Position numbers and translations under genes: made by a program. The notes beneath the pieces were generated by a model. That model worked only from the letters and a program-made list of their open reading frames with translations. It made no database searches and was not told where the DNA came from. Below are positions 10,007-46,352 of a stretch of 64,000 nucleotides of DNA, one piece after another (within the stretch, counting starts at the first letter, position 1; the number at the start of each line of letters is the position of its first letter). Source of the stretch: Actinobacteria bacterium IMCC26256 (lineage in GTDB: Bacteria; Actinomycetota; Acidimicrobiia; IMCC26256); contig CP011489.1 in NCBI GenBank assembly GCA_001023575.1, forward strand, positions 558,001 to 622,000, in the 5' to 3' direction.

Positions 10007-10075
10007 TGGTTCCTCCAGAAAAGTGGTCTGCTGCAGGTTAGGGCGCCGGGCTCGGCGAGGTGCGATGCTAGGGGA

Positions 10076-10447
10076 ATGCATTATGTGCGAATCTTTAATG
10101 ATGAGGCTGGAGAGAGCCATTTTGAGGATGTCTCGCTCTCTGAGGAAGTCGTTCCGCCCGAGCAGGGAGTCGCCGAGCTGACACTTAGCGATCCGGTCTC
10201 GGTTGATCGTGCGATCTTTGTCTCGCTCCCTGGTGATGAGCAGGCCCCCGATTGGCATACAGCGCCTCGACGCCAATTCGTTGTAGTGCTCGACGGGGGA
10301 GTGCGCATAGAGGTAAGCGATGGCGAGGTGCGCGACCTCCCCGCAGGGAGCGTGGTTCTAGTTGAGGACACGACGGGTCGAGGTCATGTTACTGAGTATG
10401 TACCCGGCCCACGACGAGTGATCCTGATCCCGCTTGAGGCAGATTAG
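10076..10447 (+). CDS. Cupin-domain protein
   Basis: A 123-residue single-cupin protein starting at ATG 10076 behind AGGGGA. The core R-R-Q-F-V-V-V-L-D-G-G-V-x-I-E-V then D-G-E-V-R-D-L-P-A-G-S-V-V-L-V-E-D is a typical small cupin barrel with one conserved His (G-H-V-T-E). Metal binding and activity are unknown. It is divergent from the lipoprotein hydrolase with only a 69 bp gap, so the promoters share that interval. A longer in-frame start at 9950 would overlap the hydrolase and is unlikely. Confidence 0.75.
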   Translation: MHYVRIFNDEAGESHFEDVSLSEEVVPPEQGVAELTLSDPVSVDRAIFVSLPGDEQAPDWHTAPRRQFVVVLDGGVRIEVSDGEVRDLPAGSVVLVEDTTGRGHVTEYVPGPRRVILIPLEAD

Positions 10448-10496
10448 TAAAGCACGCGATCAGAGTTGAGTAAAGCAGTTACTTCTCTGGCGCGAC

Positions 10497-12270: not shown

Positions 12271-12278
12271 ATGTTCGA
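12263..12278. promoter_or_regulatory. LexA (SOS) box over the start of 13E12 copy 1
   Basis: The 16 bp perfect palindrome TCGAACATATGTTCGA matches the actinobacterial/Gram-positive LexA box (CGAAC-N4-GTTCG). It covers the start codon and the end of the -10 region of the minus-strand HNH gene, so bound LexA would block initiation. The same box is at the same place in the second copy (24816-24831). Confidence 0.85.
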
Positions 12279-12378
12279 CTCTAATGCAGGGGTGTGACAA
12301 CTACCTACACATGTTGAACGAAGCTGGATTCAAGAGCCTTGACGTCGGACGGCACCTTGTCCCGCCAGTCGGTCAGCG

Positions 12379-27018: not shown

Positions 27019-30000
27019 ATGTGCTCGGTCGTATGGCATCTAAAGAAAGACAGGGCAGTGACGATTTCTTTACCTAACCAAATGTCGATGCGTAGGTGGC
27101 TAGCTGGTCTCCTCTCGCTCGTTCTGGTCTGTGGTGCCCTTCTCGCTGTCAATGTCGGATCGAAACGTGCGGATGCTCTCCTGCCGGTCTCGCCATGGAG
27201 TTTTGCAACTATCGGGGTAACGGTCGCAGGGCAAGGCGGGATCGGAACCGGAGCAGATCAACTTGAGGCTCCCGCCGGGTTAGTTCTCGATGCAAGTAAC
27301 AATATTTTTGTCGCCGACACAGCTAATAGTCGGATACAAAAATGTGTACACGCCTCCGCTAGCTGCACAACAGTCGCTGGCCAAGGTGGCATCGGTACGG
27401 GTAGCGATCAGCTAGATCATCCGCGCGGTATTGCACTCGACACGAGCGGCAACATCTACATCGCAGACACGGCGAATAACCGGGTACAGAAATGCGCACC
27501 AGACGGTCTGACCTGTACGACGGTCGCTGGCCAGAGCGGAGTCGGTAGCGACCAACTCGATACACCATCAGGGATCGCAGTAGATGCGCTAGGCAGTATC
27601 TACATAGCGGACACGGCTAATAGTCGTGTCCAAAAGTGTTTGCCCGAAAGCCTGACCTGTACGACGGTCGCTGGCCAGGGCGGTGTGGGCACCGATCCTG
27701 ATCAGTTAGATCATCCGCGTGGTGTCGCACTGGATGCCAGCGGCAATATCTATGTAGCGGACACGGCGAATAGTCGTATACAAAAGTGTTTACCCGACGA
27801 GGTTTCATGCACGACGATCGCTGGGCAGGGCGGCCTGGGCTCTGATTATGACCAGCTCTCTAGCCCTAACGGCCTTGAGGTGGATCAGTACGGCAACTTC
27901 TACGTCGCCGACGCGGGTAATAGTCGAGTGCAATTCTGTACAGTCCTTTTGGACTGCACCACACCCGTAGGAGTTGAGGACTCAGGGAACAAGACGAATC
28001 AGGTTGCCGCAGCTCTCGGAGTAGCGGTCGATACGACAGGCAACCTATATATCGCAGACACGAACAACAATCGGGTGGAGGAGTACTACCTAAAAGTCGT
28101 CACTGTCGCAGGCGCCGGTAACCCACGTGATGCAAAAAACCAGCTCATCCTCCCTGCTGGCATAGCGTTAGATGGGAACGGCATCGTCTACGTAGCAGAC
28201 CTAGGGAACAATCGCATTCAGAAGTGTGTGCCAGGATCGCGCACCTGTGCGACGGCGACCTCAAATGGGACCGGCGGTGTATTCGGTGTTGCATTGGATG
28301 CGACAGGGAACATCTATGGCATGGGCCTGGGTAACAGTCTTATCTATATGTGTGCGCCTCTATCGGCGTCCTGTACGACAGTCGCAGGCCAAGGCGGGGA
28401 AGGATCAGGGTCCGACCAATTGGCGAGACCCATGGGTGTCGCCGTAGATGCGAGTGGCAACATTTATATCGCAGATACGCAGAATAATCGTATTCAGAAA
28501 TGTTTTCTAGGTTCGGCGTCTTGTACGACAGTCGCAGGCCAAGGCGGGCAAGGATCAGGGTCCGACCAATTGGCGAGCCCCGTGGGTGTGGCCGTAGATG
28601 CGAGTGGCAACATCTACATAGCGGACATGTCTAATGACCGTATACAAAAATGTGCACCAGACGAAGCGTCGTGTACGACGGTCGCTGGCCAAGGTGGCAT
28701 CGGTACGGGTAGCGATCAGCTAGATCATCCGCGCGGTATTGCACTCAACACGAGCGGCAACATCTACATCGCAGACTCAAACAACAATCGCATACAGAAG
28801 TGCCTACTAGGTTCGACGTCCTGTACGACGGTCGCAGGCCAAGGCGGGAAAGGCTCAGGCGCAGACCAACTCAGCTTTCCATTTGCTGTTGCTGTAAGCG
28901 ATCACGGGATTCTTTACATCTCTGATGTGGCTAACAATCGAGTGCAGAGGTGTGTACCGGGATCGGCGTCCTGTACGACGGTCGCAGGCCAAGACGGTCG
29001 CGGATCGGATGGACCGCCCTACGTCCCTTTGAGCGTGGCCTTGGACGCTAGCGAAAACATCTATTTTACGGGGGGTCCCGCTGGCCCTTACACGGCCGGT
29101 GGCGTTCTGCGGTGCGTGTTAGGCCCAACTAGCTGTGCGACGGTCGCAGGCCAAGGTGGGGAAGGCTCAGGCGCAGACCAACTCTCCTATCCTGCTGGCA
29201 TGGCGTTCGATGCGAGCGGCAACATCTACATCGCAGACTCAAACAACAATCGAGTGCAGAGGTGTGTACCGGGATCGGCGTCCTGTACGACGGTCGCAGG
29301 CCAAGGCGGGAAAGGCTCAGGCGCAGACCAACTGAACCTTCCGACGACAGTGGCTGTAGATGCAATCGGCAACATTTATATCTCAGATCTGCTCAACGAT
29401 CGTGTTCAGAAGTGTGTGCCAGGTTCGACATCCTGTACGACAGTCGCAGGCGGAAACGGTTATGGTTCAGGGGCAGACCAACTCTGGGGCCCATGGGGTG
29501 TGGCGCTGGACGCGAGGGGAAGCATCTATATTTCAGACGCGAATAACAGTCGTGTGCAGAAGTGTGTTCTCGCCTCGGGTGACTGTACGACGGTCGCAGG
29601 GCAAGGTGGATACGGCACAGGATCAGACCAGCTCTCCGAAGCGTTTGGCATAACGGTGGACGTAAGCGGCAATCTCTATATCGCAGACTCGGCCAACGAT
29701 CGTGTTCAGAAGTGTGCTCCAGGCTCGACGTCCTGTACAACAGTTGCAGGCGGAAACGGTGAGGGCTCAGGATCAGACCAGCTCGCCAATCCTTATGGAG
29801 TTGCCGTAGATGTGAGCGGCAACGTATACGTCGCAGACACCGACAATTATCGCGTTCAGAAGGTTTTGACGGCTTGGATGGATCAGACGATTACGTTTGA
29901 TCCGATTAGCGCTCAATCTTCTGCGCTCTCCTCCGTTGCGATGGCGGCTGTTCCGAGTTCTGCTATGTCCACGTCCTCAAGTCTTGGGCTATCCGCGCAC

Positions 30001-31068
30001 GCATCTTCTGGTGCAGGGGTCTCGTTCGTATCTACGACTCCACGGGTGTGTGCGATCAGTGGTGCGACGGTGACGGTCACCGCTGCAGGGACTTGCACGG
30101 TCACAGCTAAACAGGATGGGGTATTCCCCTTCACCGCTGCAGCTCCAGTGTCGCAATCTTTCGTTGGGACTATTGCCCCTTGCTCCACCACACTGCTCTG
30201 CGGGGTGCGTGTGGCTGATAGTGGTGCGAATGAGGGTAGTGGCACTGCTGGTACGACCGTCTCAACAATGTTCGGTACAGATCACCCCACGAGCGAAGCG
30301 CTCTGTGTCTGGTACTCGACCGAAGACGCAACCGCTAACGGTGCAGACCGGATAGATGTTTGGAATGGCACGCAAGACTTCACACGCCTCGGCATAACAA
30401 AGCCCAAGTATGTGATCCTGGGTGCGAATAAGAGCTCTGGGAAGATCTCTGTAAAAATCAACTACGACACGACAATAGAAGAAGACGAGTATTTCAATGT
30501 GGTGGTCTCAAAAGTAACCACCAAAGTTCTCGGGAAATGTGACCCAAATTCTGCTGCTGACCCACGTTTCGTGCTTGTACGCGATACGGGGAGGGTCACT
30601 ATCCACGATGACGATACGAAAGGCCCTCAAACGGCGTTTCGTGTTGCTGATAGTGGCGCTACCGAGGGAAGTGGCCCCGTGGGAACGACAGTCTCTGTGA
30701 TGTTCGGTACGGATCGCCCAACAGCTGCTCCACTATGTGTGTGGTACTCGACCGTCGGGGGTACCGCTACAGGTGCCGATCGGATAACTGCTTGGGACGG
30801 AACACAAGACTTCACACGCCTCGGCATAACAAAGCCTAAGTATGTGATCTTGGGTACTAACAGGACCTCGGGGAAGATCTCTACAAAGATCAACTACGAC
30901 ACGACGATAGAAGAAGACGAATACTTCAATATCGTGGTCTCTAAAGTCACAGCCCAAGTCGGCGGTAGATGCTCATCAGCGTCGCTCGCTGACCCAGGTG
31001 TGGTGGTAACGCGCGATACAGGAAGAGTCACAATCTTCGATGACGACACCCCGCTACCGGAGAACTGA
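27019..31068 (+). CDS. Secreted NHL-repeat beta-propeller protein with Calx-beta-like tail
   Basis: A 1349-residue exported protein. After an N-terminal hydrophobic signal (about residues 24-48) come 18 repeats of about 50 residues with the pattern T-V-A-G-Q-G-G...D-Q-L...G-V-A-V-D-A-S-G-N-I-Y-I-A-D...N-R-V-Q-K-C, i.e. NHL blades enough for three six-bladed propellers. Most repeats carry two Cys, likely disulfides. Then an Ig/Big-like domain (about 955-1045) and two Calx-beta-like repeats with E-E-D-E-Y-F-N calcium-type motifs. No LPxTG or C-terminal anchor is seen. It probably binds a ligand or mediates adhesion. Start uncertain: ATG 27019, GTG 27058 or ATG 27082. It is the first cargo gene of the island. 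Confidence 0.85.
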   Translation: MCSVVWHLKKDRAVTISLPNQMSMRRWLAGLLSLVLVCGALLAVNVGSKRADALLPVSPWSFATIGVTVAGQGGIGTGADQLEAPAGLVLDASNNIFVADTANSRIQKCVHASASCTTVAGQGGIGTGSDQLDHPRGIALDTSGNIYIADTANNRVQKCAPDGLTCTTVAGQSGVGSDQLDTPSGIAVDALGSIYIADTANSRVQKCLPESLTCTTVAGQGGVGTDPDQLDHPRGVALDASGNIYVADTANSRIQKCLPDEVSCTTIAGQGGLGSDYDQLSSPNGLEVDQYGNFYVADAGNSRVQFCTVLLDCTTPVGVEDSGNKTNQVAAALGVAVDTTGNLYIADTNNNRVEEYYLKVVTVAGAGNPRDAKNQLILPAGIALDGNGIVYVADLGNNRIQKCVPGSRTCATATSNGTGGVFGVALDATGNIYGMGLGNSLIYMCAPLSASCTTVAGQGGEGSGSDQLARPMGVAVDASGNIYIADTQNNRIQKCFLGSASCTTVAGQGGQGSGSDQLASPVGVAVDASGNIYIADMSNDRIQKCAPDEASCTTVAGQGGIGTGSDQLDHPRGIALNTSGNIYIADSNNNRIQKCLLGSTSCTTVAGQGGKGSGADQLSFPFAVAVSDHGILYISDVANNRVQRCVPGSASCTTVAGQDGRGSDGPPYVPLSVALDASENIYFTGGPAGPYTAGGVLRCVLGPTSCATVAGQGGEGSGADQLSYPAGMAFDASGNIYIADSNNNRVQRCVPGSASCTTVAGQGGKGSGADQLNLPTTVAVDAIGNIYISDLLNDRVQKCVPGSTSCTTVAGGNGYGSGADQLWGPWGVALDARGSIYISDANNSRVQKCVLASGDCTTVAGQGGYGTGSDQLSEAFGITVDVSGNLYIADSANDRVQKCAPGSTSCTTVAGGNGEGSGSDQLANPYGVAVDVSGNVYVADTDNYRVQKVLTAWMDQTITFDPISAQSSALSSVAMAAVPSSAMSTSSSLGLSAHASSGAGVSFVSTTPRVCAISGATVTVTAAGTCTVTAKQDGVFPFTAAAPVSQSFVGTIAPCSTTLLCGVRVADSGANEGSGTAGTTVSTMFGTDHPTSEALCVWYSTEDATANGADRIDVWNGTQDFTRLGITKPKYVILGANKSSGKISVKINYDTTIEEDEYFNVVVSKVTTKVLGKCDPNSAADPRFVLVRDTGRVTIHDDDTKGPQTAFRVADSGATEGSGPVGTTVSVMFGTDRPTAAPLCVWYSTVGGTATGADRITAWDGTQDFTRLGITKPKYVILGTNRTSGKISTKINYDTTIEEDEYFNIVVSKVTAQVGGRCSSASLADPGVVVTRDTGRVTIFDDDTPLPEN
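27373..29868 (+). repeat. About 150 bp intragenic repeats encoding the NHL blades
   Basis: The 18 blades are also repeated in DNA. Some are nearly identical over about 100 bp, for example 27373-27467 against 28681-28775, which differ only around the codon Asp versus Asn. Others share the 5' portion GTCGCAGGCCAAGGCGGG. This points to recent duplication or gene conversion between blades. Confidence 0.75.
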
Positions 31069-31483: not shown

Positions 31484-32821
31484 ATGAATATCGACGAAAT
31501 GCCAGCACTACCAAGGGTTAAGGCTCTCCCAAAGGTGCTTCTAAGGCGTGTGATGCTTGCGTTCTTGGTTGCAGAGACTTCTAATCGCACTTCAGTCACT
31601 ATTTCGCATCGTCAAATAGCAGGAAAGTTAAATCGTTCTTCTCATCGACTCATCGGTAAACATCTAGAAGCTCTTATTGATGCAGGGTTTATCGAGGTTG
31701 CCATGGAGTCTGGTGGTGTCGTTCCCCATTCTTATAAGAGGGGAGCGTTCTTCTATGGGCGTACTCGTGACAATGAGAGACTCATTTCTCTGTCGCAGAT
31801 CCTCTCCGGCAGCGAGGGACTGTTGTCGGATTGGAAGGAAGTCTCTGCTTGGGGGCATGGTGCGCTCGGCCCGATTGGGGTGTTGTGCGTTGCGACCTTG
31901 TCCAGACTCGAGGGGCCGACTGCTCAGCCTGCTCTCAAGAGGTACTTAGAGCCGCTCTGTGTGGGGTCTTCTGTGGATAAGAAGTTGAGGGACCTACGGG
32001 AATGCGGGTTAGTTGTTAAGACCTCGGAGGGAGTAGCTCTCGTCGCCGACTGGGAGAGGGTGCTACATCGGGTGTTAGCAAAAAATCCGGCTGGGCATTT
32101 AAGAAAGGGTCGTGGGGATCACCGCCGAAAATGCGAATCTGAAGCAAATTTTCGTTCGGTGAACCGAGGGTGCTTGTCGGATGAAGAGAGAAGACAGATG
32201 GGGTCTCTCCTCTGTGTTGTGTGCGGAATTAGGAGAGGTGTTGAGGGGGAGCATTTTCCGCCAAAGCGTTTCCTAGATTTGGTGAAGGAACGGAACCATC
32301 GAGCCTTCTTGTGGGCGATCTGTCGGACCTGTAACAATGCAGAATCTGAGTTCATTAAGGCAATGAGGGACTGCAAGCCGGAGGATTTAAAGGCGATCTC
32401 GTTGAAAGGGGTACGCGATCCGCTTGCGGCCTATTTGGCCTACTCGAATGTGCGTAGGCAAATTTTTCACGATGCGGTCAAGACGCTTGATTATGAGACT
32501 GCGGAGAGAGTTGTTTGTGAGGTGCTTGCCTTTTGGCATGCATTAGAGACGATGGGTCTCACCGGGTATGCAGATCGGATATCCGCTCCCGTTGATGGAG
32601 ACCTCAGCGCAACAGCGGATGTCCACCCAGCCGTTTGTGCCAGCCAGTTGCCGCTAGGGGTGAACAAACGGTATGCGGACGAAATTCCGATAAAGCGACG
32701 TGGGCATATTCTTGTCGAGCGAGTGTTTTTCGTTGATGAGTTCGCCCGCTCGAGAGATCACCTGCCATCTACCAGCCACCAACTCCGTGTAACAGTGATG
32801 TGCAAGCAAAAAGCCTCTTAG
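31484..32821 (+). CDS. Winged-helix plus HNH-like zinc nuclease domain protein
   Basis: A 445-residue protein that I do not recognise as a named family. Residues 1-95 look like a winged helix: T-I-S-H-R-Q-I-A-G-K-L-N-R-S-S-H-R-L-I then G-K-H-L-E-A-L-I-D-A-G-F-I. Around residues 230-300 is an HNH-type zinc centre: C-V-V-C-G, G-E-H-F-P-P-K-R-F-L and C-R-T-C-N-N-A-E-S. The E-H-F-P-P-K form resembles HNH domains of the E-H-x-x-P-K type. It may bind and cut DNA, or regulate the operon that starts 237 bp downstream. Start ATG 31484 follows GGTGGGG. Confidence 0.6.
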   Translation: MNIDEMPALPRVKALPKVLLRRVMLAFLVAETSNRTSVTISHRQIAGKLNRSSHRLIGKHLEALIDAGFIEVAMESGGVVPHSYKRGAFFYGRTRDNERLISLSQILSGSEGLLSDWKEVSAWGHGALGPIGVLCVATLSRLEGPTAQPALKRYLEPLCVGSSVDKKLRDLRECGLVVKTSEGVALVADWERVLHRVLAKNPAGHLRKGRGDHRRKCESEANFRSVNRGCLSDEERRQMGSLLCVVCGIRRGVEGEHFPPKRFLDLVKERNHRAFLWAICRTCNNAESEFIKAMRDCKPEDLKAISLKGVRDPLAAYLAYSNVRRQIFHDAVKTLDYETAERVVCEVLAFWHALETMGLTGYADRISAPVDGDLSATADVHPAVCASQLPLGVNKRYADEIPIKRRGHILVERVFFVDEFARSRDHLPSTSHQLRVTVMCKQKAS

Positions 32822-32900: not shown

Positions 32901-32930
32901 TTGACACAATTTCATGGCCCCTGATAAATT
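32901..32930 (+). promoter_or_regulatory. Candidate promoter of the defence operon
   Basis: A perfect -35 TTGACA (32901-32906), 18 bp spacer, and a -10-like TAAATT (32925-32930), preceded by TGA as a partial extended -10. It lies about 120 bp upstream of the first operon gene at 33059, whose start follows a GGGGGA site. Confidence 0.45.
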
Positions 32931-33058: not shown

Positions 33059-34048
33059 ATGGTTGATGGTCCTCTAGGTGTCGCGAGCCGAATCAAATGG
33101 CAAGACGAAACCGTGTGGAGAGCTTTGCCCGAATGGTCAAAATTTTATTTTGACTTAGGAGCCCACATTGTTTCGGTCGAAGACGCTAACGAGAGATCTA
33201 TTACTGCACTTTTGGTTCCAACTCGATCATTCGTGTCGGCGTTTATAGCCCTGGGAGCAGTCGCTGCCGCTATAGAAACGGAAGGCGAGGATGCAACCAA
33301 TGACGAAATGCTGAAGACGATTGCTCAACTCCCTTCCGGCGCGATTCTCACAAGTATGCGGGCTGGAAAGAAGGTTAAGTTCAAATTTAGGGAGTTAACC
33401 ACTACTCATGTCGTTATGTACAACAACGCTGCAGGGTTGCTTGAGCGCATTCCGCTAGAGCGAGCCCATACGATTTCTATAGGCGGAGTCGGGAGGGACG
33501 AGTACCCGAGCGCGAGAAACTCAGCAGCTAAGCAATCATGGGAACCGGAGTTCATTGAGGATGCACTCGGCATCAGTGATGCGACTGAGTACGTGAGGAG
33601 AGATAATTTTGCGGCCCTCATTGTTGGCAGGCTGAATCTCCTGAGCGAGGAATTGGAGCGAACAGGTTTTTCGGTTCGAGTCAACGGAAAGCGGCGCAGG
33701 GGACACCTCGAAGATATTCTCCGCACGCGCAAATTCGCTGACGATGACCTTGGGGAGGCCTTCAGAACTGATGTGATGTCAGAGACGGCACGCGAACTCC
33801 TTCCGGAAGTTGCGGCGCTTGCCCCGCCATTGATTGTTTTCGACAGCAGCCATGCTTTCCTCAAACACCGGAATTCATTTCCGAGCGGGAATTGGGTCGC
33901 AGTAGTCGATCGTTCCTCGGATCGATCAGTCGAGTCAGTCGAGGTCTTGAACCAACTTTACGCTCAGAGGCTCAGAAGCGACGAGCTATCGGATTCACTT
34001 GAATTACCACCAGGAGTTGATGCGATGTCATTCATGATGTCTCGATGA
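33059..34048 (+). CDS. Operon gene 1: unknown, possible N-terminal half of a split DrmE
   Basis: A 329-residue protein without a motif I can name with certainty. The N-terminal 130 residues are alpha/beta; the later part has a segment P-P-L-I-V-F-D-S-S-H-A-F-L then N-W-V-A-V-V-D-R-S-S, a pair of hydrophobic strands ending in Asp that is reminiscent of DrmE proteins of class 2 DISARM. Start ATG 33059 follows GGGGGA by 6 bases. Its stop overlaps the next start (ATGA at 34045), so the two products are probably made in equal amounts. Together they total about 840 residues, near the size of one DrmE chain. This link is inference. Confidence 0.5.
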   Translation: MVDGPLGVASRIKWQDETVWRALPEWSKFYFDLGAHIVSVEDANERSITALLVPTRSFVSAFIALGAVAAAIETEGEDATNDEMLKTIAQLPSGAILTSMRAGKKVKFKFRELTTTHVVMYNNAAGLLERIPLERAHTISIGGVGRDEYPSARNSAAKQSWEPEFIEDALGISDATEYVRRDNFAALIVGRLNLLSEELERTGFSVRVNGKRRRGHLEDILRTRKFADDDLGEAFRTDVMSETARELLPEVAALAPPLIVFDSSHAFLKHRNSFPSGNWVAVVDRSSDRSVESVEVLNQLYAQRLRSDELSDSLELPPGVDAMSFMMSR

Positions 34049-35583
34049 CTGCTGGAACCTTCGACGTCAAAACCACTACACAGATCTACTCTGTAGCCGA
34101 GCGCGCCAAACTTGGTTGGTTCACTGTTGACCATGATGGCTTCAGGGAATTCTCTCTTTCACTCCAGCAACTTAAGCGCGGGCTAGGTGAGAGGCTCGCA
34201 GTCGACCACTGGGTCGAGTTCATCGGGATACTTAACCGCGCACGCTGGCGCTACAGCATCACTCCACTACCTTTCAATTCGCCAGCCTTTGGCACACGGC
34301 AAATATCCGAGCAGTTGCCGAGCCTTTTAAGAAGGATCTCGGCCCACGAACCCCCTGGTTTTGTAGCAGAGGCAGAGGAATTAGCAGCACAGGCACAATC
34401 CCTTATCCAATCGCCGAGTGACTCCTTAACAGATTGCGTGATAGAGCTCATAAGGGCGGATAAGGCCCCGAAAGGGACACTCGTTGTTCCGAAAGCGACT
34501 TACCAGTCAGCGATTGCTGCCCACCTGGCGCATCGAGCTCGTGGAATTGGGATTGATGTCGTAACACCACGAGAACTTGCGTTGCTCGGAGCGAGAGAAG
34601 CAATAACAGTCGTTGGCTCAACCGTCTGGTACCGAGGAATGGATCATGTATTCGTAACGCCGCGCGCAAGTCGCGTAATGATGGTTCGCTGGGAGTGGAT
34701 AAACGAGACACTTCCGAGTGAAGAGAGATTTGCGGGTGGGCATCGAGGTAAACGGAGGGAACCAACTCCTCCGCCAAGTCCCAAAGCGAGAGAGTCCATC
34801 GCTGCATCGGAGATAACTCCCGAAATTGATTGGGGTGGCGTCGGCTCCGTATTTACAGATGGTGCGGGGGCAGCATCGGCGGGCGAGCTTGTTGAGTGTC
34901 GCCTATGGGCCCTTGCTAATGGTTGGGCAGTCGCTACCCGCACAGATACTGACGCAACGATCCGAACGGTCGATCCCTCCCTGGAGGGAGTAGCGCGAGT
35001 AGGCGAGAGTGCAATAGCTGACCTTGAGGTCGGAGATTATGTTGCGTTACGAAGTGGCGGCGGCGGCGATGTCATTGCAGAGATAGCCGACCTGCAAATT
35101 GGTGAGGATGCAGCGCGATTAAGAGGGCTGCAAAAACTCTGGAAGGGCGAGCTCCGTCAACGAATTCGTCTGAATTCAGCTGAGGGCGTCGCCAAAACCA
35201 TCGGAACCTCCGCCCAGAATGTGCAAAATTGGGCGTCAGACAGCCCTAACAAAATTGGACCAGGTAAGAAAGAAGACTTCGTTCGTGTTTTGACTTTTCT
35301 GGGGTTGAAAGATCGCAGTAACGAGATGTGGAGTGCCGTCAAGCGGCTTCGGAGCGAGCACCATAAAGCAGGAACGGTGTTCACTAAAAGCCTTGTTTCC
35401 AAGATAAGTACCGCTGATTTGAGTCAGCTCGAGAACACTGGATCAATGATAGTGACCCTAAACGGGGTCCAAGGCGCTCCGATGCAGGTATGGCGTATTG
35501 AGGACCGGTCCGAAGAAACCTTGATGGTCCCTGAGACTCTGATCCTAAGACCAATAGAGGTTGGTGACCTGTGGCACGGATGA
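34045..35583 (+). CDS. Operon gene 2: possible C-terminal half of DrmE
   Basis: A 512-residue protein. The middle region (T-L-V-V-P-K-A-T-Y, I-D-V-V-T-P-R-E-L, T-V-V-G-S-T-V-W-Y-R-G-M-D) looks like the second RecA-like lobe of a helicase without its catalytic loops. The C-terminal 150 residues read V-G-D-Y-V-A-L-R-S-G, then L-R-G-L-Q-K-L-W-K and a helix-turn-helix V-Q-N-W-A...I-G-P-G-K-K-E-D-F, followed by H-H-K-A-G. I recall this layout from the C-terminal domain of DISARM DrmE, but cannot verify it without a search. It overlaps both neighbours by ATGA. Confidence 0.5.
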   Translation: MTAGTFDVKTTTQIYSVAERAKLGWFTVDHDGFREFSLSLQQLKRGLGERLAVDHWVEFIGILNRARWRYSITPLPFNSPAFGTRQISEQLPSLLRRISAHEPPGFVAEAEELAAQAQSLIQSPSDSLTDCVIELIRADKAPKGTLVVPKATYQSAIAAHLAHRARGIGIDVVTPRELALLGAREAITVVGSTVWYRGMDHVFVTPRASRVMMVRWEWINETLPSEERFAGGHRGKRREPTPPPSPKARESIAASEITPEIDWGGVGSVFTDGAGAASAGELVECRLWALANGWAVATRTDTDATIRTVDPSLEGVARVGESAIADLEVGDYVALRSGGGGDVIAEIADLQIGEDAARLRGLQKLWKGELRQRIRLNSAEGVAKTIGTSAQNVQNWASDSPNKIGPGKKEDFVRVLTFLGLKDRSNEMWSAVKRLRSEHHKAGTVFTKSLVSKISTADLSQLENTGSMIVTLNGVQGAPMQVWRIEDRSEETLMVPETLILRPIEVGDLWHG

Positions 35584-37295
35584 TTCCTCCGGTTTTTGAC
35601 CCAATGAATCCAAGCCCAGGGGAACGCATTCTGTTCGACCAACTTCGTGACGATTCCTTAACCGAGCGTTGGACCGCCCTCCACTCTCTTGATCTACCAA
35701 AGCATATTAATCAATCCGTTGGGGAAATTGACTTCGTTGTAATAATTCCCGGCCAAGGTGTTGTTTGCTGCGAGGTTAAAGGTCATAAGAAAATTCGACG
35801 CGTGGATGGCGCCTGGTACCTTGGCCAAAATCAGTCTCCTGACTACAGGGGGCCATTCAAGCAAGCAGCAGACGGGATGTATTCGCTCCGACAACGTGTC
35901 CGGACTGCGATGCCTGACCAGAACCAAACGATCTTCACTTCGGTAGTGATAGTGCCTTTTCTAGATGATCTAGAGAAACAGCAACACGCCGAATGGGAAG
36001 ATTGGCAATTGATTACAAAGAAGAAGCTGAACGAGACTGGAATAGGAAATCTTCTTACGCAGGCAATTGAACAGGAACGCCAACGCCAAGCCTCTCCGCC
36101 GAAGAGCTCTGGCTTCGAACTAAAGAAGAGCAATGCCCTGGTCTCTTACCTTCGCCCTGATTTTGAAATGTTTGTGTCACCAGCCGAGCGCAGACTGGAG
36201 CGGCGTGCGGACCTCCTTAGATTCACGGGTGAGCAGCTCGAGGCACTCGATCTGATGGGAAGTAATCGCCAAACGTTGTTTGAGGGACCAGCCGGAACCG
36301 GCAAGACGGTCTTGGCAATAGAGGAGGCCCGCCGCGCCGCACTCTCAAATGAGAAAGTGCTATTTATTTGTTACAACAACTGGCTTGCCAAGAAAATAGC
36401 TCGTGAATTCAAAGACGAAGAAGCTGTAACCGTTCGCACTCTTGGGGCCCTTTACCTAGACATTGTCGGGCGAGAAACCCCCGCTATTGGGCGAGACAGT
36501 GAATGGTGGGATCACGAGCTTAGGGAGCAAGCAATCGAAGTGCTTCTGGATCGTGGTTACCCTGGAGACTTCGATTTGATGATCATTGATGAGGCACAAG
36601 ATATTTTCGCCCTAGGTGGTCTTGAAGTAATTGACCTTATTGGCCAGGATTTATTGCGCTCGGGAAGGTGGCGCATGTTCGGGGACTTTGAGCGACAAGC
36701 AATTTTTGGTGATCCCTCGAGCGCACTTGCCGAATTACGAAACATCTCGCCGCAGATTACTCATTTTCCGCTCACGAAGAACTGCAGAAATACACCAAGG
36801 ATCGTCAGCTTTATAGAGATGGCCTCGGGGATGGTCCCCGGTTATGCGAAGATCCTCCGCTCTGACGACAAGGTGGACCCAAGTGTGTCGTATTACAAGA
36901 ATGAAACCAAACAAGGAGCGCTGCTCCAGCAGAGTATCGAATCGCTCCTAGAGGAGGGCTTCGAGAACGGCGAGATTGCAGTGCTCTCACCGAAACGAAA
37001 AGGAATTTCAACGATCATAAATGGGGATCTTCAAGAGCAGCTCGGAACTGATTCGGAAAGCCTTGATGATGATCTAATCGTCGTGGCGACGATTAGAAAA
37101 TTCAAAGGGCTCGACAGACCGGCAGTCATAATCACGGATATTGATGATGTGTCTACACCAGCCTCTGAAGCGATGTTTTATACAGGCATGACACGAGCAA
37201 CGGATCGCCTAATCGTATTAATCGCGCATGATCAACAAGCTAATGTCAGAGACAAACTTGCGAAGTTCGCACAAATCAAGGGGCAGCAGAAGTGA
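35580..37295 (+). CDS. NERD nuclease-domain SF1 (UvrD-like) helicase
   Basis: About 571 residues. An N-terminal NERD domain (about 10-110) has its nuclease-like residues: G-E-I-D-F-V-V and C-C-E-V-K-G. It is followed by an SF1 helicase: Walker A G-P-A-G-T-G-K-T near 240, Walker B I-I-D-E-A-Q-D-I, T-K-N-C-R-N-T, K-F-K-G-L-D and T-R-A-T-D-R-L. It should translocate on and perhaps cut DNA. I prefer the ATG at 35580 (ATGA overlap with the previous stop) over the GTG at 35571. It ends in a GTGA overlap with the drmA-like gene. DrmC, the nuclease of DISARM, is absent and this protein could take its place. Confidence 0.85.
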   Translation: MIPPVFDPMNPSPGERILFDQLRDDSLTERWTALHSLDLPKHINQSVGEIDFVVIIPGQGVVCCEVKGHKKIRRVDGAWYLGQNQSPDYRGPFKQAADGMYSLRQRVRTAMPDQNQTIFTSVVIVPFLDDLEKQQHAEWEDWQLITKKKLNETGIGNLLTQAIEQERQRQASPPKSSGFELKKSNALVSYLRPDFEMFVSPAERRLERRADLLRFTGEQLEALDLMGSNRQTLFEGPAGTGKTVLAIEEARRAALSNEKVLFICYNNWLAKKIAREFKDEEAVTVRTLGALYLDIVGRETPAIGRDSEWWDHELREQAIEVLLDRGYPGDFDLMIIDEAQDIFALGGLEVIDLIGQDLLRSGRWRMFGDFERQAIFGDPSSALAELRNISPQITHFPLTKNCRNTPRIVSFIEMASGMVPGYAKILRSDDKVDPSVSYYKNETKQGALLQQSIESLLEEGFENGEIAVLSPKRKGISTIINGDLQEQLGTDSESLDDDLIVVATIRKFKGLDRPAVIITDIDDVSTPASEAMFYTGMTRATDRLIVLIAHDQQANVRDKLAKFAQIKGQQK

Positions 37296-40200
37296 CTTCA
37301 AGCAATCACATCGATAATCGAGAAGTCATCGTCGATGCCCTACGCGCAGAGCTAGTAGGGCCCGATCCGCAGGGACCCGAGGTTGAGTGCCGGGGAAGTG
37401 CATCGATTCATGTTGATGATCCGAGGGCACCGCATCGCCAAAGCGGTTCCGGGGAAGAAATTTTAACTGGCGATGCGCCCCTGACCCGTTACGGAATAGG
37501 CGTCCTATTTCCAATAGCTGTGTCCGACGATCCACCTCCCGAGAATGAAGAAGACGGTTCGATGGAAACCCCGGATCAAGGTAGTGAGGAGGAGGCCCTA
37601 GAGGCATTTATCGATGAGGGGGGGCAGGAGATTGAAAAGGTCATGGACCGATTCGAGCGTGGAAACTCGAGAGGTGAAGGCCCAGACGAGGAGCCGTCTT
37701 TAGCAGGCGCCAATGACCGCCAGCCCTCCGCTATGGCAGTCAGTTTCCTGCTTGACGTGACTGACGTAGATGAGTTGAACGTCGAAATCACTGGCGGACG
37801 ATACACCGCTCGAAAGGTTAACCACGACCCTACCTCTAAGGCTTGGCAGCCAACATGGTGGCTACGTACCCCCGTGAAAATTGTTTCTACATTCGAAATC
37901 CAAACATTGCTCGCAGCAAAAGGGAAACGAATAAGCGGAACCGTCGTCCTCGATGAAGGTTCCGGCCCGATCAGCATCGAAGCATTTTGTGTAGCCCGAG
38001 CACATGCTCCCAACCAGCTTCTCCTCACCGTTGGAATTATCAATCGCTCAGTTCAGGTGACCGGAGATGATCGCATCAACGACTGGCGGACTGCTTCATG
38101 TCTCTTCCAAAGCGCCTTTACCGTATCGCCAGGAGTTGGGTCAAGCAGTTCAGTGCTTCCGTACCCGCAGCGCGGCGGGCTCGAACGTGACGACGAGGAA
38201 TGGTCACTCGAGCTCCTATACCGTGATGTGCAGACATTTGCTATAGGGCATGGATGCTCGGCGGATTGGGACACGCGTGATGGTGCGTCGAGGGCTAATG
38301 CCGTGCGTGCCGAATGCCTCCCCGCCTTCGAGACCCCAAGCATTACCCCAAACGTTACTGGGCCCGACGGTCAACCAATTTTTGTGCCGATGGCTCCACT
38401 TGCAGGCCTAATACCAGAGGACAACGGTATGGGCAATGTCGCACAGATCATCAACGGCTATGAGGAGTGGATTGACTCGAAACGCGACTCCATTAGTGAA
38501 TTGGAGCCAGAGGAGCTGAAGTTGCATGCTCGGCGACACATCAAAGAATGCGAGCGAATGTTGTCTCGCATGCGAAAGGGCGTTGAGTTCTTAGAGGGGG
38601 ATGCAAAAGCTAGGCGTGCATTTCAACTAGCTAATCGAGCAATCCTCTTTCAACAGATCCGAGCTGGAGCACCTGTGCGACTCTTGGAATGGGACAAGCG
38701 TGATAAGAAAATCGGACACAAAGATCCGATGCTCACACCTGATCCGCTCGTGCCGACGGCAGGGCGTGGACAGTGGCGCCCTTTCCAGATCGCCTTCCTC
38801 CTAGCGGCTATTGAAACAACTGCGCTCCCATTGCATGAGGATCGGGAGCTAGTTGATCTCATTTTCTTCCCAACAGGAGGCGGAAAGACCGAGGCTTATC
38901 TGGCGCTAGCTGCTTTCGCCACGTTCTATCGCCGCCTAAGCGACCCAGAGGACCTTGGCACAAACGTCCTTATGCGCTACACGCTTCGCCTGCTAACCGC
39001 ACAACAGTTCCAACGCGCAGCGGCACTCATCTGTGCAATGGAAATAATCCGCCAGACTGAGGATGACAAACTTGGAGGGCACTTTTCTATCGGTATCTGG
39101 GTAGGAAATTCGGTTACGCCGAACGATAAGGCAGCGGCGCTCAAAATGTTAAGTGAGTTAAACAAGGGCGATGGATACGCTGATAACGGTTTTCTTGTTA
39201 CGCGGTGTCCTTGGTGTGCTGCACAGATTGGACCCATTAATTACCAAGGAAAGAAACCGAAATATGCACCGGTGCAGGTCGGCTACGAGCAGAAAGTTGA
39301 CACTGTAATTATCAAGTGTACCGATCATGAGTGCGCCTTCAGCGGTGGTTTGCCGGTCCGAGTAATTGACCAAGAGATATACGAACACCGACCAGACATC
39401 ATCATTGGGACTGTCGATAAGTTTGCTCGCCTCATTTGGCGTGACGACACGCGATCGATATTCGGTATCGGACAAAATGGGGAGCGCGAATATTCACCCC
39501 CAGGGCTAATTATTCAAGATGAGCTGCACCTAATTTCAGGTCCCTTGGGTTCAATGGTCGGGATGTTCGAGACGCTTATCGATGTGCTGTGCTGCCAAGA
39601 GCACGAAAGCGGAGAGGTAACTCGCCCAAAAATCGTAAGCTCAACGGCAACAATAAGACGGTATTCGGAGCAAACAAAAGCTCTCTTTGCACGCGACGAC
39701 GTAGCCCTATTTCCGCCGAGGGGGCTTGAGGCTGGGGATTCATATTTTGCGACCTATGCAAGAGATGCATCAGGGGAGCTGAGCGTTGGTAGGCGATACG
39801 TTGGAATTCTGGGTACGAGTCTCGGATCGCACCAGACAGCACAGACGCGATCCGCAGCGACTGCGCTTTACGTCGCCAATCTCCTCGGGGGCCCAGAAGC
39901 GGCGGACCCCTGGTGGACAGTCCTCTCGTTCTATAACAGTCTTCGCGAACTGGGTGGGGGTTTATCGCTGTACCAACGAGACATTAAGGAGTACATGTGG
40001 ACCTTGCACCTTCGGAAGGGTCTTCCAAACACCTCTTTGCGGTCATTCCACCGCGTCGAGGAACTCACAAGCAGAATTCGCAACCAAGATGTTCCTGACC
40101 GTCTGGCCCAACTTGAAGTCTCAACGACAGATCCGAATCAGGAAGCGATCGATGCATGCCTAGCGACGAGCATTATTGAAGTTGGAGTTGACATTGACCG

Positions 40201-40822
40201 ACTTTCTTTGATGGCAATCATCGGGCAGCCCAAGACCACAGCCCAATACATCCAAGTATCCGGGCGTGTAGGACGCCGGTGGCAGGAGAGGCCGGGCCTG
40301 ATCCTCACCGTTTATAGCCCCACAAAGGCTCGTGACAGATCACATTTCGAAAAATTCCGCTCGTACCACGAACGCCTCTACGCTCAGGTCGAACCTACAA
40401 GCGTGACGCCATTCGCTCCGCCAGTTCAAGAGCGCGGACTACACGCCTTACTAGTCGCATTCATCCGCCAATTCGGGCCTACCGCTGATGTCCAGTCACC
40501 GTATCCCGTTCCGATTGCGCTCATTAACAGGGCAAAGGAGGCCATCGAAGCCCGCGTCAATATCGTCGACCCCGACGAGAGCCGCACTGCTCTCGAAATG
40601 CTGCAACGTCGCATTAAGGAGTGGCAGCGATCGGGGGCGACCAAGTGGCAGCGTGAGGGCTCCGTCGACGTCGATTTTCTGATTCGTCCAAGCGGCGAGT
40701 ACATCGAAGCAAAGCTTGCTAGGACCACATGGGCGTTACCGACGTCTCTACGTGATGTAGATGCAAGCTGCGAAGCGACCATCACCTCCCACTACTCAGC
40801 GCACTTGCCAAATACGCCATAG
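37292..40822 (+). CDS. drmA: DISARM-type helicase DrmA
   Basis: A 1176-residue SF2 helicase. Walker A is F-F-P-T-G-G-G-K-T-E-A-Y-L near residue 527, motif II is Q-D-E-L-H-L-I-S-G near 743, and motifs V/VI are S-I-I-E-V-G-V-D-I-D and Q-V-S-G-R-V-G-R-R near 965-990. A zinc ribbon (C-P-W-C and C-T-D-H-E-C) is inserted between motifs I and II. The 500-residue N-terminal part and the FPTGGGKTEAYL/DELH pattern are what DrmA proteins show. DrmA forms a complex with DrmB that loads on phage DNA in known DISARM. GTG start within GTGA overlap. The drmB-like gene follows after 20 bp. Confidence 0.85.
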   Translation: MTSSNHIDNREVIVDALRAELVGPDPQGPEVECRGSASIHVDDPRAPHRQSGSGEEILTGDAPLTRYGIGVLFPIAVSDDPPPENEEDGSMETPDQGSEEEALEAFIDEGGQEIEKVMDRFERGNSRGEGPDEEPSLAGANDRQPSAMAVSFLLDVTDVDELNVEITGGRYTARKVNHDPTSKAWQPTWWLRTPVKIVSTFEIQTLLAAKGKRISGTVVLDEGSGPISIEAFCVARAHAPNQLLLTVGIINRSVQVTGDDRINDWRTASCLFQSAFTVSPGVGSSSSVLPYPQRGGLERDDEEWSLELLYRDVQTFAIGHGCSADWDTRDGASRANAVRAECLPAFETPSITPNVTGPDGQPIFVPMAPLAGLIPEDNGMGNVAQIINGYEEWIDSKRDSISELEPEELKLHARRHIKECERMLSRMRKGVEFLEGDAKARRAFQLANRAILFQQIRAGAPVRLLEWDKRDKKIGHKDPMLTPDPLVPTAGRGQWRPFQIAFLLAAIETTALPLHEDRELVDLIFFPTGGGKTEAYLALAAFATFYRRLSDPEDLGTNVLMRYTLRLLTAQQFQRAAALICAMEIIRQTEDDKLGGHFSIGIWVGNSVTPNDKAAALKMLSELNKGDGYADNGFLVTRCPWCAAQIGPINYQGKKPKYAPVQVGYEQKVDTVIIKCTDHECAFSGGLPVRVIDQEIYEHRPDIIIGTVDKFARLIWRDDTRSIFGIGQNGEREYSPPGLIIQDELHLISGPLGSMVGMFETLIDVLCCQEHESGEVTRPKIVSSTATIRRYSEQTKALFARDDVALFPPRGLEAGDSYFATYARDASGELSVGRRYVGILGTSLGSHQTAQTRSAATALYVANLLGGPEAADPWWTVLSFYNSLRELGGGLSLYQRDIKEYMWTLHLRKGLPNTSLRSFHRVEELTSRIRNQDVPDRLAQLEVSTTDPNQEAIDACLATSIIEVGVDIDRLSLMAIIGQPKTTAQYIQVSGRVGRRWQERPGLILTVYSPTKARDRSHFEKFRSYHERLYAQVEPTSVTPFAPPVQERGLHALLVAFIRQFGPTADVQSPYPVPIALINRAKEAIEARVNIVDPDESRTALEMLQRRIKEWQRSGATKWQREGSVDVDFLIRPSGEYIEAKLARTTWALPTSLRDVDASCEATITSHYSAHLPNTP

Positions 40823-40842
40823 CTAGAGAATCGGATAATCAG

Positions 40843-42828
40843 ATGCCTTACAATAGATCCCCATTGCGCCGAGCAGACCTAGTGACCAACGCCGGAGTTG
40901 GGGCGATGTTCACAACACCCGAGAGAATCTCACTCATCACCGCAGGGCTTGACCACTGGTTCGAACGCGAGTCCACAAATTCGAAATCAGGGATCGACGC
41001 CTCTGAGTATCGAGTCGAGGAGTGGCGGCTCCAGCGGAGCTTGGGCGTTTCTCATTTCCGACTCCCACCGGACTACAGACCGAGTTGGCAGTTCGGGGGA
41101 ACGGAGAAGAACCTTGAGCTCACGATCCCGGCACTGCGTTTCCCTTGTTGGTATGTCTGTCGTAACTTGCAATGCCGAACCTTGGTGAGGCTCCCATTGA
41201 CCGTCAATAACACCCAAATGTGCCCTGCCTGTCACGCTAAGGGAAAGAAGTCGCGCCTAGGCCAAGTCGATTTTGTAGCGATCTGCCCGTCCGGACATCT
41301 GCGGGATTTCCCTTGGTACTCTTGGTGCCATAGAACAATGGATGACCCAGATCCCGCGCCTGTGTCGCTTCCTTGTCGCGGGACGATGTCCTTCAAGGCG
41401 GTCGGTGGCGCCTCCCTAGCATCACAAATAGTTAGGTGCACTTGTGGTGCTCATCGAAACCTATCTCGCATCACCTTCGGCGATTCCACGACAAGTGTCT
41501 TAAGCGGCGAAATGGTGCCAAGGCAATCTGCGGAGTTCTTATGCGATGGACAGATGCCTTGGAACGGTACCGATGATCAGGGAAGGGTTCGGAGGTCGAG
41601 TATTGGCTGCGGGAAACCGCTTGTTGGCGCACTAAGGACTGCATCGAATGTCTACTACAGCATTGTTCGGAGTGCCATCTACCTGCCACGTAGCACATCC
41701 ATGGCTCCGCGTGAGCTCATCGCGCTGTTAGAGGAACCAACGCCGTCTCAGATGATCAACCTGTTCGTGACACCAGAGACGATTGATTTAGGTGAACTCG
41801 CTACTTTGCTGAGGGACGTAATCGGCGCCGCAGCAGATGACTTCACTGATCAACAGTTTGAGAATGCGATTAGGGTTTTCACGAATCGTGTTGACCCGGA
41901 TACTCCAGCACTGCCTAATGTCGAAACTGACGATGCTGCTACCGCCTTTAGGCGTGCAGAATTTGGTGTGCTGAGGGAGCCGCAAGACGCTGACGAGCTC
42001 AGGATTCGCAAAGCAGATGTCGCCGATTACGGGCCGTTGATTCAATCTAATTTTGAAAGAATAATGCTCGTTGATTCGTTGCGCGAGACGCGCGCTTTCG
42101 TTGGCTTCTCAAGGCTCCAATCCTCAGTCGGTGCTAATGGACTGGACCCAAGATCTGCGTTGCGATACGAGTCGACGGAGTCGCCGAATGATTGGTTGCC
42201 CGCATATGTAGTTCATGGAGAGGGTATCTACCTAGAGCTTGACCCAAATCGAGTGCGCGAGTGGGAAACTAGGGCGAGTGTCATTGCCCGTGCGGCGCAG
42301 ATCCTACGAAATTATGAAGCGAGTCGCTCCAAGAACAAGACCAATGCCGAGCTAGGAGTGACATTAACTCCTCGATTTCTATTGCTCCATGCATTGGCGC
42401 ACGCTCTACTTAATAAGATGACTTTCGATGCCGGGTACTCGACGGCCGCCTTACGCGAGCGCATTTTTGCTAGCGATGACCCCTCGGCGCCAATGGCTGG
42501 GCTCCTCATTTACACAGCGGCTGGAGATGCTGACGGGACAATGGGGGGTTTGGTTAGGCTCGGTAGACCAGGCATGCTCCGGTCCACGATAACTCGAGCT
42601 ATTGATGATGCGCGATGGTGCTCAGCTGATCCCGTATGTATGGAGATAAGTCATCACGGAGGCCAAGGGCCCGGGGCGTGCAACCTCGCCGCCTGCCATG
42701 GATGTTCACTCGTAGCAGAGACCGCCTGCGAGCATTTCAACCGGTTTCTAGACCGTGGGGTTCTTATCGGTGACCCCGAAGTCCCTGACTTGGCGTTCTT
42801 CCCAGATGATCAGTCACTTGGAATTTGA
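40843..42828 (+). CDS. drmB: DrmB (DUF1998 protein)
   Basis: A 661-residue protein. The N-terminal third has zinc sites (C-R-N-L-Q-C, C-P-A-C, C-P-S-G-H-L-R-D-F-P-W). The C-terminal DUF1998 domain (about 505-645) reads L-L-H-A-L-A-H-A-L-L...S-T-A-A-L-R-E-R-I, G-L-L-I-Y-T-A-A-G-D-A-D-G-T-M-G-G-L-V, A-R-W-C-S-A-D-P-V-C and N-L-A-A-C-H-G-C-S-L-V-A-E-T-A-C-E, the classic DrmB ending. In known DISARM it binds DrmA and helps sense unmodified incoming DNA. The order drmA-drmB directly adjacent is the conserved DISARM core. Confidence 0.88.
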   Translation: MPYNRSPLRRADLVTNAGVGAMFTTPERISLITAGLDHWFERESTNSKSGIDASEYRVEEWRLQRSLGVSHFRLPPDYRPSWQFGGTEKNLELTIPALRFPCWYVCRNLQCRTLVRLPLTVNNTQMCPACHAKGKKSRLGQVDFVAICPSGHLRDFPWYSWCHRTMDDPDPAPVSLPCRGTMSFKAVGGASLASQIVRCTCGAHRNLSRITFGDSTTSVLSGEMVPRQSAEFLCDGQMPWNGTDDQGRVRRSSIGCGKPLVGALRTASNVYYSIVRSAIYLPRSTSMAPRELIALLEEPTPSQMINLFVTPETIDLGELATLLRDVIGAAADDFTDQQFENAIRVFTNRVDPDTPALPNVETDDAATAFRRAEFGVLREPQDADELRIRKADVADYGPLIQSNFERIMLVDSLRETRAFVGFSRLQSSVGANGLDPRSALRYESTESPNDWLPAYVVHGEGIYLELDPNRVREWETRASVIARAAQILRNYEASRSKNKTNAELGVTLTPRFLLLHALAHALLNKMTFDAGYSTAALRERIFASDDPSAPMAGLLIYTAAGDADGTMGGLVRLGRPGMLRSTITRAIDDARWCSADPVCMEISHHGGQGPGACNLAACHGCSLVAETACEHFNRFLDRGVLIGDPEVPDLAFFPDDQSLGI

Positions 42829-42887
42829 AGATCTGAGCCGGAGAAGGCAGAAAGCCAGTACGAATCCGGCGGAGGCTTTTCTTTATT

Positions 42888-44108
42888 TTGGCATGGGTTT
42901 TTTACAAGTCGATCGAAAGCGATGATTGGTTGACCCAGGCCGGAAGTAAAGTCATTTTCATCAAACCATCGCCTGCACCTACTGATTCGACTGCCATCCT
43001 CACTCCCGGTGCGCACTCCCCATTTTCCTTCATTGACCTGTTCGCAGGGATAGGTGGATTCCATCTAGGCATGGTTGCGAACGGAGGGGTTTGCCGATTT
43101 AGCAACGAATGGAATAAGTACGCTGCTATTACATATAAAGCGTGGACCGGATGCTTAGATTCCTTAGACGGTGGTAATTTCTTCGGCGGTGATATTCGTC
43201 TCCTAGTCGAGGACGGAGTGATCCCAACCGTCGACGTTCTCTGTGCTGGCTTTCCTTGTCAGCCATTCTCCCTAGCAGGGGTATCAAAGAAGAATTCTTT
43301 GAAAAGGCCTCACGGGTTCTTAGATGCGGAACAGGGGAATCTTTTTGATGCCATCTGTGAAATAGCCGCGGCGACTAAGCCACGCGTGCTGTTCCTGGAA
43401 AATGTAAAGAACTTGAAGAGCCATGACAAGGGACAGACTTGGAGAGTAATCACCGAAAAGTTGGACCACTTGGGATACGAGCTAAAGCACGAGGTCATAG
43501 ATGCCGCAGGTTGGGTGCCCCAGCACCGAGAGCGAGTATTCATGGTTGCATTCAGGCGCGGGGTAATCGAACCGAGCGAAATTGCATCATTCCATTTTCC
43601 TGATTACCCGAGAAAGCGTCCCAAACTGGGTTCAATTCTTGAAAAAGATCCGGATAAAAAGTACATGCTCTCAGACAACTTATGGGCCTATCTGCAGGCG
43701 TATGCCGAGAAGCATAGAAAGCTTGGAAATGGGTTTGGCTTCGGGCTCGTAGGACCAGAAGATATATCTAGGACAATGTCGGCCCGCTATCACAAAGATG
43801 GGAGCGAAATACTAATTGACCAACCCGACTGGAAAAATCCGCGCCGCCTCACCCCGAATGAAGCAGCGAAGCTAATGGGTTTTAACTCCAAGTTTGCAAA
43901 ATTAATGGGGCATGGTACGGAGTTCCCGATTGTTGTCTCAGACACGCAGGCCTATCGCCAGTTTGGGAACTCGGTTAGCCCGATCGTTGTAGAAGCAGTC
44001 GGGGCAGAGATCGCCCGGGTATTACAGATGCGACTTGATCGCCTGTCTGCAAAACGCGACCGAAAGCACCAAGCGAGAGCAACCGTGCCAAAACAGAAAC
44101 AGCAATGA
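42888..44108 (+). CDS. drmMII: C5-cytosine DNA methyltransferase (DrmMII type)
   Basis: About 406 residues; adds a methyl group to cytosine C5 in a specific DNA site. Motif I is F-I-D-L-F-A-G-I-G-G-F near 48, motif IV G-F-P-C-Q-P-F-S with the catalytic Cys near 124, motif VI E-N-V-K-N-L, motif VIII Q-H-R-E-R-V-F, motif X R-Q-F-G-N-S-V-S-P. The start is a TTG at 42888 with GGAGG about 12 bases upstream; no ATG exists before motif I. It marks host DNA as self for DISARM class 2. The presence of an EcoRII-N protein in the operon suggests that both may recognise the same site, possibly CCWGG-like; this is inference. ATGA overlap with the next gene. Confidence 0.93.
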   Translation: MAWVFYKSIESDDWLTQAGSKVIFIKPSPAPTDSTAILTPGAHSPFSFIDLFAGIGGFHLGMVANGGVCRFSNEWNKYAAITYKAWTGCLDSLDGGNFFGGDIRLLVEDGVIPTVDVLCAGFPCQPFSLAGVSKKNSLKRPHGFLDAEQGNLFDAICEIAAATKPRVLFLENVKNLKSHDKGQTWRVITEKLDHLGYELKHEVIDAAGWVPQHRERVFMVAFRRGVIEPSEIASFHFPDYPRKRPKLGSILEKDPDKKYMLSDNLWAYLQAYAEKHRKLGNGFGFGLVGPEDISRTMSARYHKDGSEILIDQPDWKNPRRLTPNEAAKLMGFNSKFAKLMGHGTEFPIVVSDTQAYRQFGNSVSPIVVEAVGAEIARVLQMRLDRLSAKRDRKHQARATVPKQKQQ

Positions 44109-45880: not shown

Positions 45881-45911
45881 TGAGGCGGGCGGTAATCGAA
45901 CAGGGGGAATT

Positions 45912-46352
45912 GTGGTCGGGCAGGTTAAGCGGATTAGTAAAATCTTGAGTCGAAATGACCTAGGTCTTACAGGATCTCACCAAGCTGGGATAACTGTCCC
46001 GAGGAATCCAGAGTTCCTTGTGATCTTCCCGAAGTTGGATCCCTTAATTAAGAATCCAGAGGCCAAAGTCTGGGTTATTGCGGAGGAGATCGAGTACGCA
46101 GGTCACCTTCGATTCATTTATTACAACGGTAAGCTTCTGGGCGAAGGCACACGAAACGAATACCGCCTGACAGGCGTAACACAACTCTTGAGGGGGCTCC
46201 AGGCGATGCCGGGTGACGAGCTTCACTTTGAACGCCGCCAAACGCAAGATCTGCATCTCGAACTTATTCGCCTCAGTAGGGAATTTGAAGAAGCGAAAGA
46301 GCAGGAGAAATCTCCAAGCGGATGGCGAATAATTAGAAGGGAAAACGTTTAA
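45912..46352 (+). CDS. Free-standing EcoRII-N-like DNA-recognition domain protein
   Basis: A 146-residue protein from the GTG at 45912 (GGGGGA upstream); a longer frame from 45831 would overlap the SNF2 gene by 50 bp. Nearly the whole chain is an EcoRII N-terminal pseudobarrel: I-S-K-I-L-S-R-N-D-L-G-L-T-G-S-H-Q-A-G-I, F-P-K-L-D-P and the later strand segment L-R-F-I-Y-Y-N. In EcoRII this B3-like domain binds the effector CCWGG site and restrains a fused nuclease. Here the nuclease half is missing. The stop overlaps the start of the GHKL ATPase (TAATG), so they are made together and probably act together as recogniser and motor/clamp. Confidence 0.8.
   Translation: MVGQVKRISKILSRNDLGLTGSHQAGITVPRNPEFLVIFPKLDPLIKNPEAKVWVIAEEIEYAGHLRFIYYNGKLLGEGTRNEYRLTGVTQLLRGLQAMPGDELHFERRQTQDLHLELIRLSREFEEAKEQEKSPSGWRIIRRENV

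Follow-up and report, generated by a model that had tools for sequence, protein, structure and literature searches.

Gene content and organisation of the locus

The window is a 64,000-nucleotide stretch of the genome of Actinobacteria bacterium IMCC26256 (contig CP011489.1, positions 558,001 to 622,000), a genome of 2.46 Mb in one contig. It contains an operon on the forward strand that is headed by two genes, here termed G1 and G2, and that continues with genes for a NERD-UvrD helicase, DrmA, DrmB and a methyltransferase, all separated by overlaps or short gaps. G1 (33059..34048) starts with ATG and encodes 329 aa matching no known family, putatively the N-terminal piece of a two-gene DrmE. 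G2 (34045..35583) also starts with ATG and encodes 512 aa that correspond by homology to the C-terminal ~60% of DrmE. A 4-base overlap, ATGA (34045..34048), joins the stop of G1 to the start of G2. A first-pass annotation had proposed two overlapping genes at 33059-35583 that together encode a split DrmE; the open reading frames and their overlap were confirmed, and the combined length of 841 aa is indeed near that of one DrmE chain, the DrmE_fam model (NF038316) having 838 positions. The complete single-chain DrmEs compared here are of 863-917 aa, with a shorter haloarchaeal one (locus L040) of ~740 aa by its open frame. The annotation had also placed the pair beside drmA-drmB, which is true with one helicase gene in between.

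That intervening gene (35571..37295) encodes a NERD nuclease-UvrD-type helicase with the Walker A motif GPAGTGKT at residue 239. It is followed by the DrmA helicase (37292..40822), which is recognised by NCBIfam DISARM_DrmAS (845.6 bits against a cut-off of 950, E 6.8e-254) and by PADLOC DrmA (6.2e-200) and has the motifs DELH and QVSGRVGR, and by DrmB (40843..42828; NCBIfam DrmB_fam 391.7 bits, cut-off 240; Pfam MZB). The last gene named above (42888..44108) encodes a DrmMII-like cytosine-5 DNA methyltransferase (PADLOC DrmMII 2e-114; TIGR00675 above cut-off). A promoter-like pair of hexamers, TTGACA-18-TAAATT, lies upstream of G1 on the same strand (32901..32930), which is weak evidence as the number of such sites is not above chance. 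No PLD-type nuclease of the drmC kind was found among the ten products scanned from 33059 to 48875; a haloarchaeal PLD query matched only L035, L041 and L042 among 20 comparison loci.

The methyltransferase is also the first member of a row (42888-48875) in which the genes overlap or abut and encode a cytosine methylase, an SNF2 helicase, an EcoRII-N protein, a MutL/MzaB-like GHKL ATPase and an HNH protein. Because the methyltransferase gene overlaps the SNF2 gene downstream by ATGA, it may serve the SNF2 block as well as, or instead of, the DISARM operon. The row resembles the MORC-type restriction operons as excerpts of PMC2292703 describe them, and the methylase may be part of it. Just upstream of the operon, 31484-32821 encodes a 445-aa protein in which a winged helix and an HNH-like cysteine cluster can be seen by eye, and 27019-31068 a 1349-aa protein with, again by eye, NHL-like repeats and a Calx-beta-like tail.

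G2 is homologous to the C-terminal part of DrmE

The possibility that neither protein would match a DrmE profile can be set aside, since G2 of the window matches DrmE_fam with 32.5 bits and E 2.8e-8, under the curated cut-off of 80. The match joins G2 319-496 to DrmE_fam 642-830 of 838, the C-terminal region of DrmE. Across the G2 relatives, seven of the ten match DrmE_fam (E up to 1), the best with 6.6e-28. In Nostoc LEGE 06077 the match (E 4.9e-21, 75.2 bits) covers DrmE_fam 381-828, and as it starts at position 381, the N-terminal half of that G2 is also DrmE. The Pfam family DrmE_C (PF24957) is matched by six of the ten, with a best value of 1.8e-9; its gathering score of 27 is exceeded by L005 (34.4 bits) and L033 (27.8 bits), and L030 falls below it. 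The G2 of the window itself has no match to Pfam DrmE_C or to the PADLOC DrmE models, and a PDB sequence search with G2 found no relative.

When the ten G2 sequences were aligned with eight single-chain DrmEs using hhalign, G2 17-503 was matched to DrmE 339-874 (E 8e-23), and the G2 profile matches the C part of 10/10 single-chain DrmEs (E 9e-15 to 2e-4); against the N parts of DrmE and the reversed N parts, nothing fell below E 0.2. For the DrmE of L011, G2 31-496 is matched colinearly. As judged from these profile comparisons, G2 is homologous to the C-terminal ~60% of DrmE.

G1 as the putative N-terminal part of DrmE

The proposal of a split DrmE is partly supported: it stands for G2 by profile match and lacks a sequence match for its other half. 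None of the ten G1 relatives matches DrmE_fam or Pfam DrmE_N (PF24955), G1 and the DrmE N-termini gave no match by hmmscan, hhalign and hmmsearch in both directions, and a PDB sequence search with G1 returned only chance-level rows. A control using five groups of single-chain DrmE puts this result in context: none of the ten pairwise comparisons of their N-terminal parts reached E 0.01, as against three of the ten for their C parts. Pfam DrmE_N was found in just one of the six single-chain DrmEs scanned, and two weak cyanobacterial matches (L020 and L021, E about 4e-4) cover DrmE_fam positions 49-121. As undisputed DrmE N parts also fail to match each other, the null result for G1 is uninformative.

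Other properties of G1 point to the missing part of DrmE. It precedes G2 in each of the ten loci (with a transposase gene in between in L004), and in nine of them its product has 313-355 aa, the size of what G2 lacks; in L031 the open frame is of 571 aa and an internal start was chosen by the analyst. The single-chain DrmE of L034 matches DrmE_fam in two stretches, 1-306 and 327-836, and this break indicates that the split lies at a domain boundary. On visual inspection, the N-termini of DrmE and G1 seem to have in common a strand, a proline, a helix and then a small beta-rich stretch. From position, size, complementarity with G2, the DrmA tree (below) and the split point at the L034 boundary, we infer that G1 corresponds to the DrmE N-terminus.

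These observations also bear on a different reading, in which G2 is a DrmE shortened by its N-terminal third and the upstream position has been taken by G1, an accessory protein of unrelated origin. The lack of any DrmE sequence match in G1 is what this reading would predict, but N-terminal parts of single-chain DrmEs are equally unrecognisable to each other, and G1 precedes G2 in 10/10 loci with, in nine, the size of the missing part; we consider this reading unlikely. It is probable, in our estimation, that G1 and G2 together constitute a clade-specific two-gene version of DrmE, a subunit of the bacterial anti-phage system DISARM, with G1 descended from the DrmE N-terminus.

Occurrence of the pair and its gene junctions

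The G1-G2 pair was found in ten loci including the window, always as two genes. The others are L003 and L004 (Nostoc HK-01 plasmids), L005 (Nostoc LEGE 06077), L006 (Calothrix PCC 7716), L007 (an Acidimicrobiia MAG) and L030-L033 (genomes of the window's class). A relative from the order of the window, G038, carries the pair with the same ORFs as an Acidimicrobiia bacterium record, and the carriers are Acidimicrobiia and their kin, and Nostocales. L004 (9870-13533, on plasmid 1 of Nostoc HK-01) has a transposase gene separating the pair and a later start of the G2 frame, and its operon may be a broken one.

Both forms of the subunit are sparsely distributed. In genome samples that overlap one another, and with the genome of the window counted in the first two, G2 relatives occur in 2/61 genomes related to that of the window, 6/395 of its class, 1/195 of the Nostoc order, and 2/34 and 2/42 in two families; in these overlapping samples DrmE_fam occurs in 3/396 genomes of the phylum of the window, 5/386 of that of the Nostoc genome, 3/197 of another class, 4/140 and 1/65 in two families, and 1/11 in a small order. 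Viral contigs searched for DrmE and G2 yielded no relative, and plasmids searched with the L011 and L034 DrmEs gave no match.

The nine junctions at which the genes are adjacent are of four kinds: a 4-base overlap (-4) in six, and spacings of 0, +2 and +3 in the others. Each of the overlaps reads ATGA or GTGA, the usual form in coupled genes. It could be argued that the split stems from a mistake in sequencing or assembly or from a frameshift mutation, or that one protein is made by programmed frameshifting or stop read-through, and L006 and L032 do have both genes in one frame with a stop codon between them. Yet a stop codon and a start are present in 9/9 adjacent pairs, in four junction kinds, the overlaps are of the type typical of coupled genes, and the extensions in the window are short (the G1 frame runs on for 15 codons beyond its stop, the G2 frame for 8 codons ahead of its ATG). 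Since the pair recurs in ten loci, always as two genes and with differing junction frames, the split is not a sequencing error, and explanations of this type are extremely improbable. A frameshift or read-through origin of G1 and G2 was rejected on the variety of the junctions across the nine adjacent pairs.

Phylogeny and origin of the split

The eight two-gene loci tested form one side of a branch in a 17-row DrmA tree, with support of 99/97, and in a changed set of 16 rows the two-gene branch has support of 99/98; the agreement of the DrmB tree with a single origin is weak (45/3). The other DrmA rows are labelled single, both the distant ones (L012, L035, L040, L041 and L042) and the nearest outside the clade (L034, L011, L038, L039, L050 and L051), the label of L012 having been given without a check of the reading frame of its DrmE. 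In that locus (9331-12651, in a G+C-rich genome), a frame of 1106 aa holds a match to the C-terminal part of DrmE_fam, and an upstream DrmE-like stretch is seemingly in another frame, either a frameshift or a real split.

The DrmA trees were rooted at the midpoint, and the direction of change is not given by the trees themselves, which leaves room for two genes as the ancestral state and single-chain DrmE as a later fusion. However, the distant and the nearest rows are all labelled single (that of L012 on an unchecked frame) and one split needs fewer events; a later fusion is, to our mind, very unlikely. With single-chain labels on all the rows that surround the two-gene clade, one split is favoured. 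A single-chain DrmE would have separated once, at an inter-domain boundary near profile position 320, most likely in the ancestor shared by a single DrmA clade, whose present-day carriers are Acidimicrobiia-related and Nostocales genomes.

Structural models and possible function

The AlphaFold2 model of G2, built from four sequences, has a mean pLDDT of 61, with the ten-residue blocks over 21-200 and 341-440 above 60. When it was compared with known structures by VIA-align, the best 50 matches listed were helicase or translocase entries, by title, over model residues ~10-231. They include Pyrococcus furiosus Hef (1wp9_B; Z 9.7, 193 aligned, 3.8 A) and 9pcp_Q of a nucleotide excision repair dual incision complex (Z 9.1, 190 aligned, 3.8 A), where the region matches the XPF rows; the matches to MDA5, RIG-I, LGP2 and Dicer are similar, at 5-8 A. 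With Foldseek the best E for G2 was 0.016, which makes the helicase-lobe likeness a lead, not proof. Against viral structures the G2 model gave only weak rows with helicase-like entries on top (best E 0.014). As a lead from the model, G2 residues ~10-231 may be RecA2-like (SF2 helicase lobe 2) with a helical insert of the Hef/XPF/RIG-I type. The AlphaFold2 model of G1 is poor (mean pLDDT 45.5) and its fold is for that reason not comparable; its Foldseek and VIA lists hold mostly small SH3/Tudor-like barrels at about residues 77-147 (Z up to 7.7), which may reflect merely a common arrangement.

A Walker A motif (G....GK[ST]) is absent from 10/10 G1 sequences and from all eight DrmEs scanned, and motif VI (Q..GR..R) is absent from 10/10 G2 sequences, which suggests, at the level of sequence motifs, that the DrmE motor is inactive here. 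XPF has an inactive helicase domain. DrmE could be an inactivated Hef/XPF-like pseudo-helicase that has been cut between its motor lobes, with lobe 1 and an SH3-like insert in G1, and lobe 2, the helical insert and a DNA-binding C-terminus in G2, the chains clamping DNA to position DrmAB and the NERD nuclease-helicase; this is a tentative picture that we regard as possible, if on balance doubtful.

For the two-gene DrmE in general, it is proposed that G1 and G2 would be made together through translational coupling and that their chains would re-associate into a DrmE-like subunit working with the DrmA-DrmB helicase. As no helicase motifs are intact, this unit most likely binds DNA or scaffolds DrmAB without ATP hydrolysis, and would not be a motor. 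In this operon the NERD-helicase would probably supply the nuclease in place of the PLD nuclease DrmC. According to the consulted portion of PMC9142583, DrmAB binds DNA with a preference for 5' overhang ssDNA; DrmD and DrmE are listed there as needing study, their roles being open. For such work the natural split gives a domain boundary of DrmE and two smaller chains for separate expression, deletion and structure solving, and a helicase-lobe-like fold of G2, if true, is a testable structural hypothesis for DrmE.

Relationship to known systems

The nearest comparisons are two operons with DrmE in one chain: L011, from the phylum of the window (898 aa), and L034, from that of the Nostoc genome (917 aa). 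Both share with the window the order DrmE, NERD-helicase, DrmA and DrmB, with a cytosine methylase nearby, but DrmE is a single chain in these loci, whereas G1-G2 takes its place in the window. A NERD-UvrD helicase lies between DrmE, in one or two genes, and DrmA in five loci (the window, L011, L032, L033 and L034); it was not found in the two-gene loci L004, L005, L006, L030 and L031; the ends of their records truncate L003 and L007. In L051 a NERD relative lies downstream of DrmB. No description of a split DrmE or of a NERD helicase in DISARM was found in the literature searched, most subscription papers lying beyond that search.

As defined in the part of PMC9252829 consulted, class 2 DISARM in PADLOC comprises DrmA, DrmB, DrmC, DrmE and DrmMII. 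The window has adjacent drmA and drmB and a DrmMII-type methyltransferase, without drmC. The locus is DISARM-like and nearest to class 2, and because it has no DrmC and its DrmE is in two genes it is not filed as canonical class 2. The PADLOC models used do not recognise the DrmE of the window, given its two-gene form, NERD-helicase and poor scores; neither does the PADLOC DrmE model match any of the four single-chain DrmEs of L011, L034, L038 and L039, so that these models miss a branch of DrmE. Compared with the DrmE of class 2 (NF038316), G2 is homologous to its C-terminal ~60% and the pair has the same operon place upstream of drmA-drmB, but class 2 DrmE is one polypeptide of ~800-900 aa and here there are two genes, G1 without an N-terminal match and G2 with a score under the cut-off.

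Outside DISARM, the modelled G2 (residues ~14-231) aligns with lobe 2 and the helical insert of the Hef/XPF/RIG-I-MDA5 group of SF2 enzymes (1wp9, 9pcp, 7jl1, 9f20) at Z about 9-10; it differs from them in its 8-14% identity in those rows and in having no motif VI, and the comparison is that of a four-sequence model with a Foldseek best E of 0.016. Within DISARM there is a precedent for such a division in DrmA-DrmB, which in the section of PMC12458937 that treats them involves the helicase and the OB-CON-DUF1998 part, and not DrmE: the YprA helicases among their relatives are one-piece proteins, whereas in DISARM the same protein is consistently encoded by two genes.
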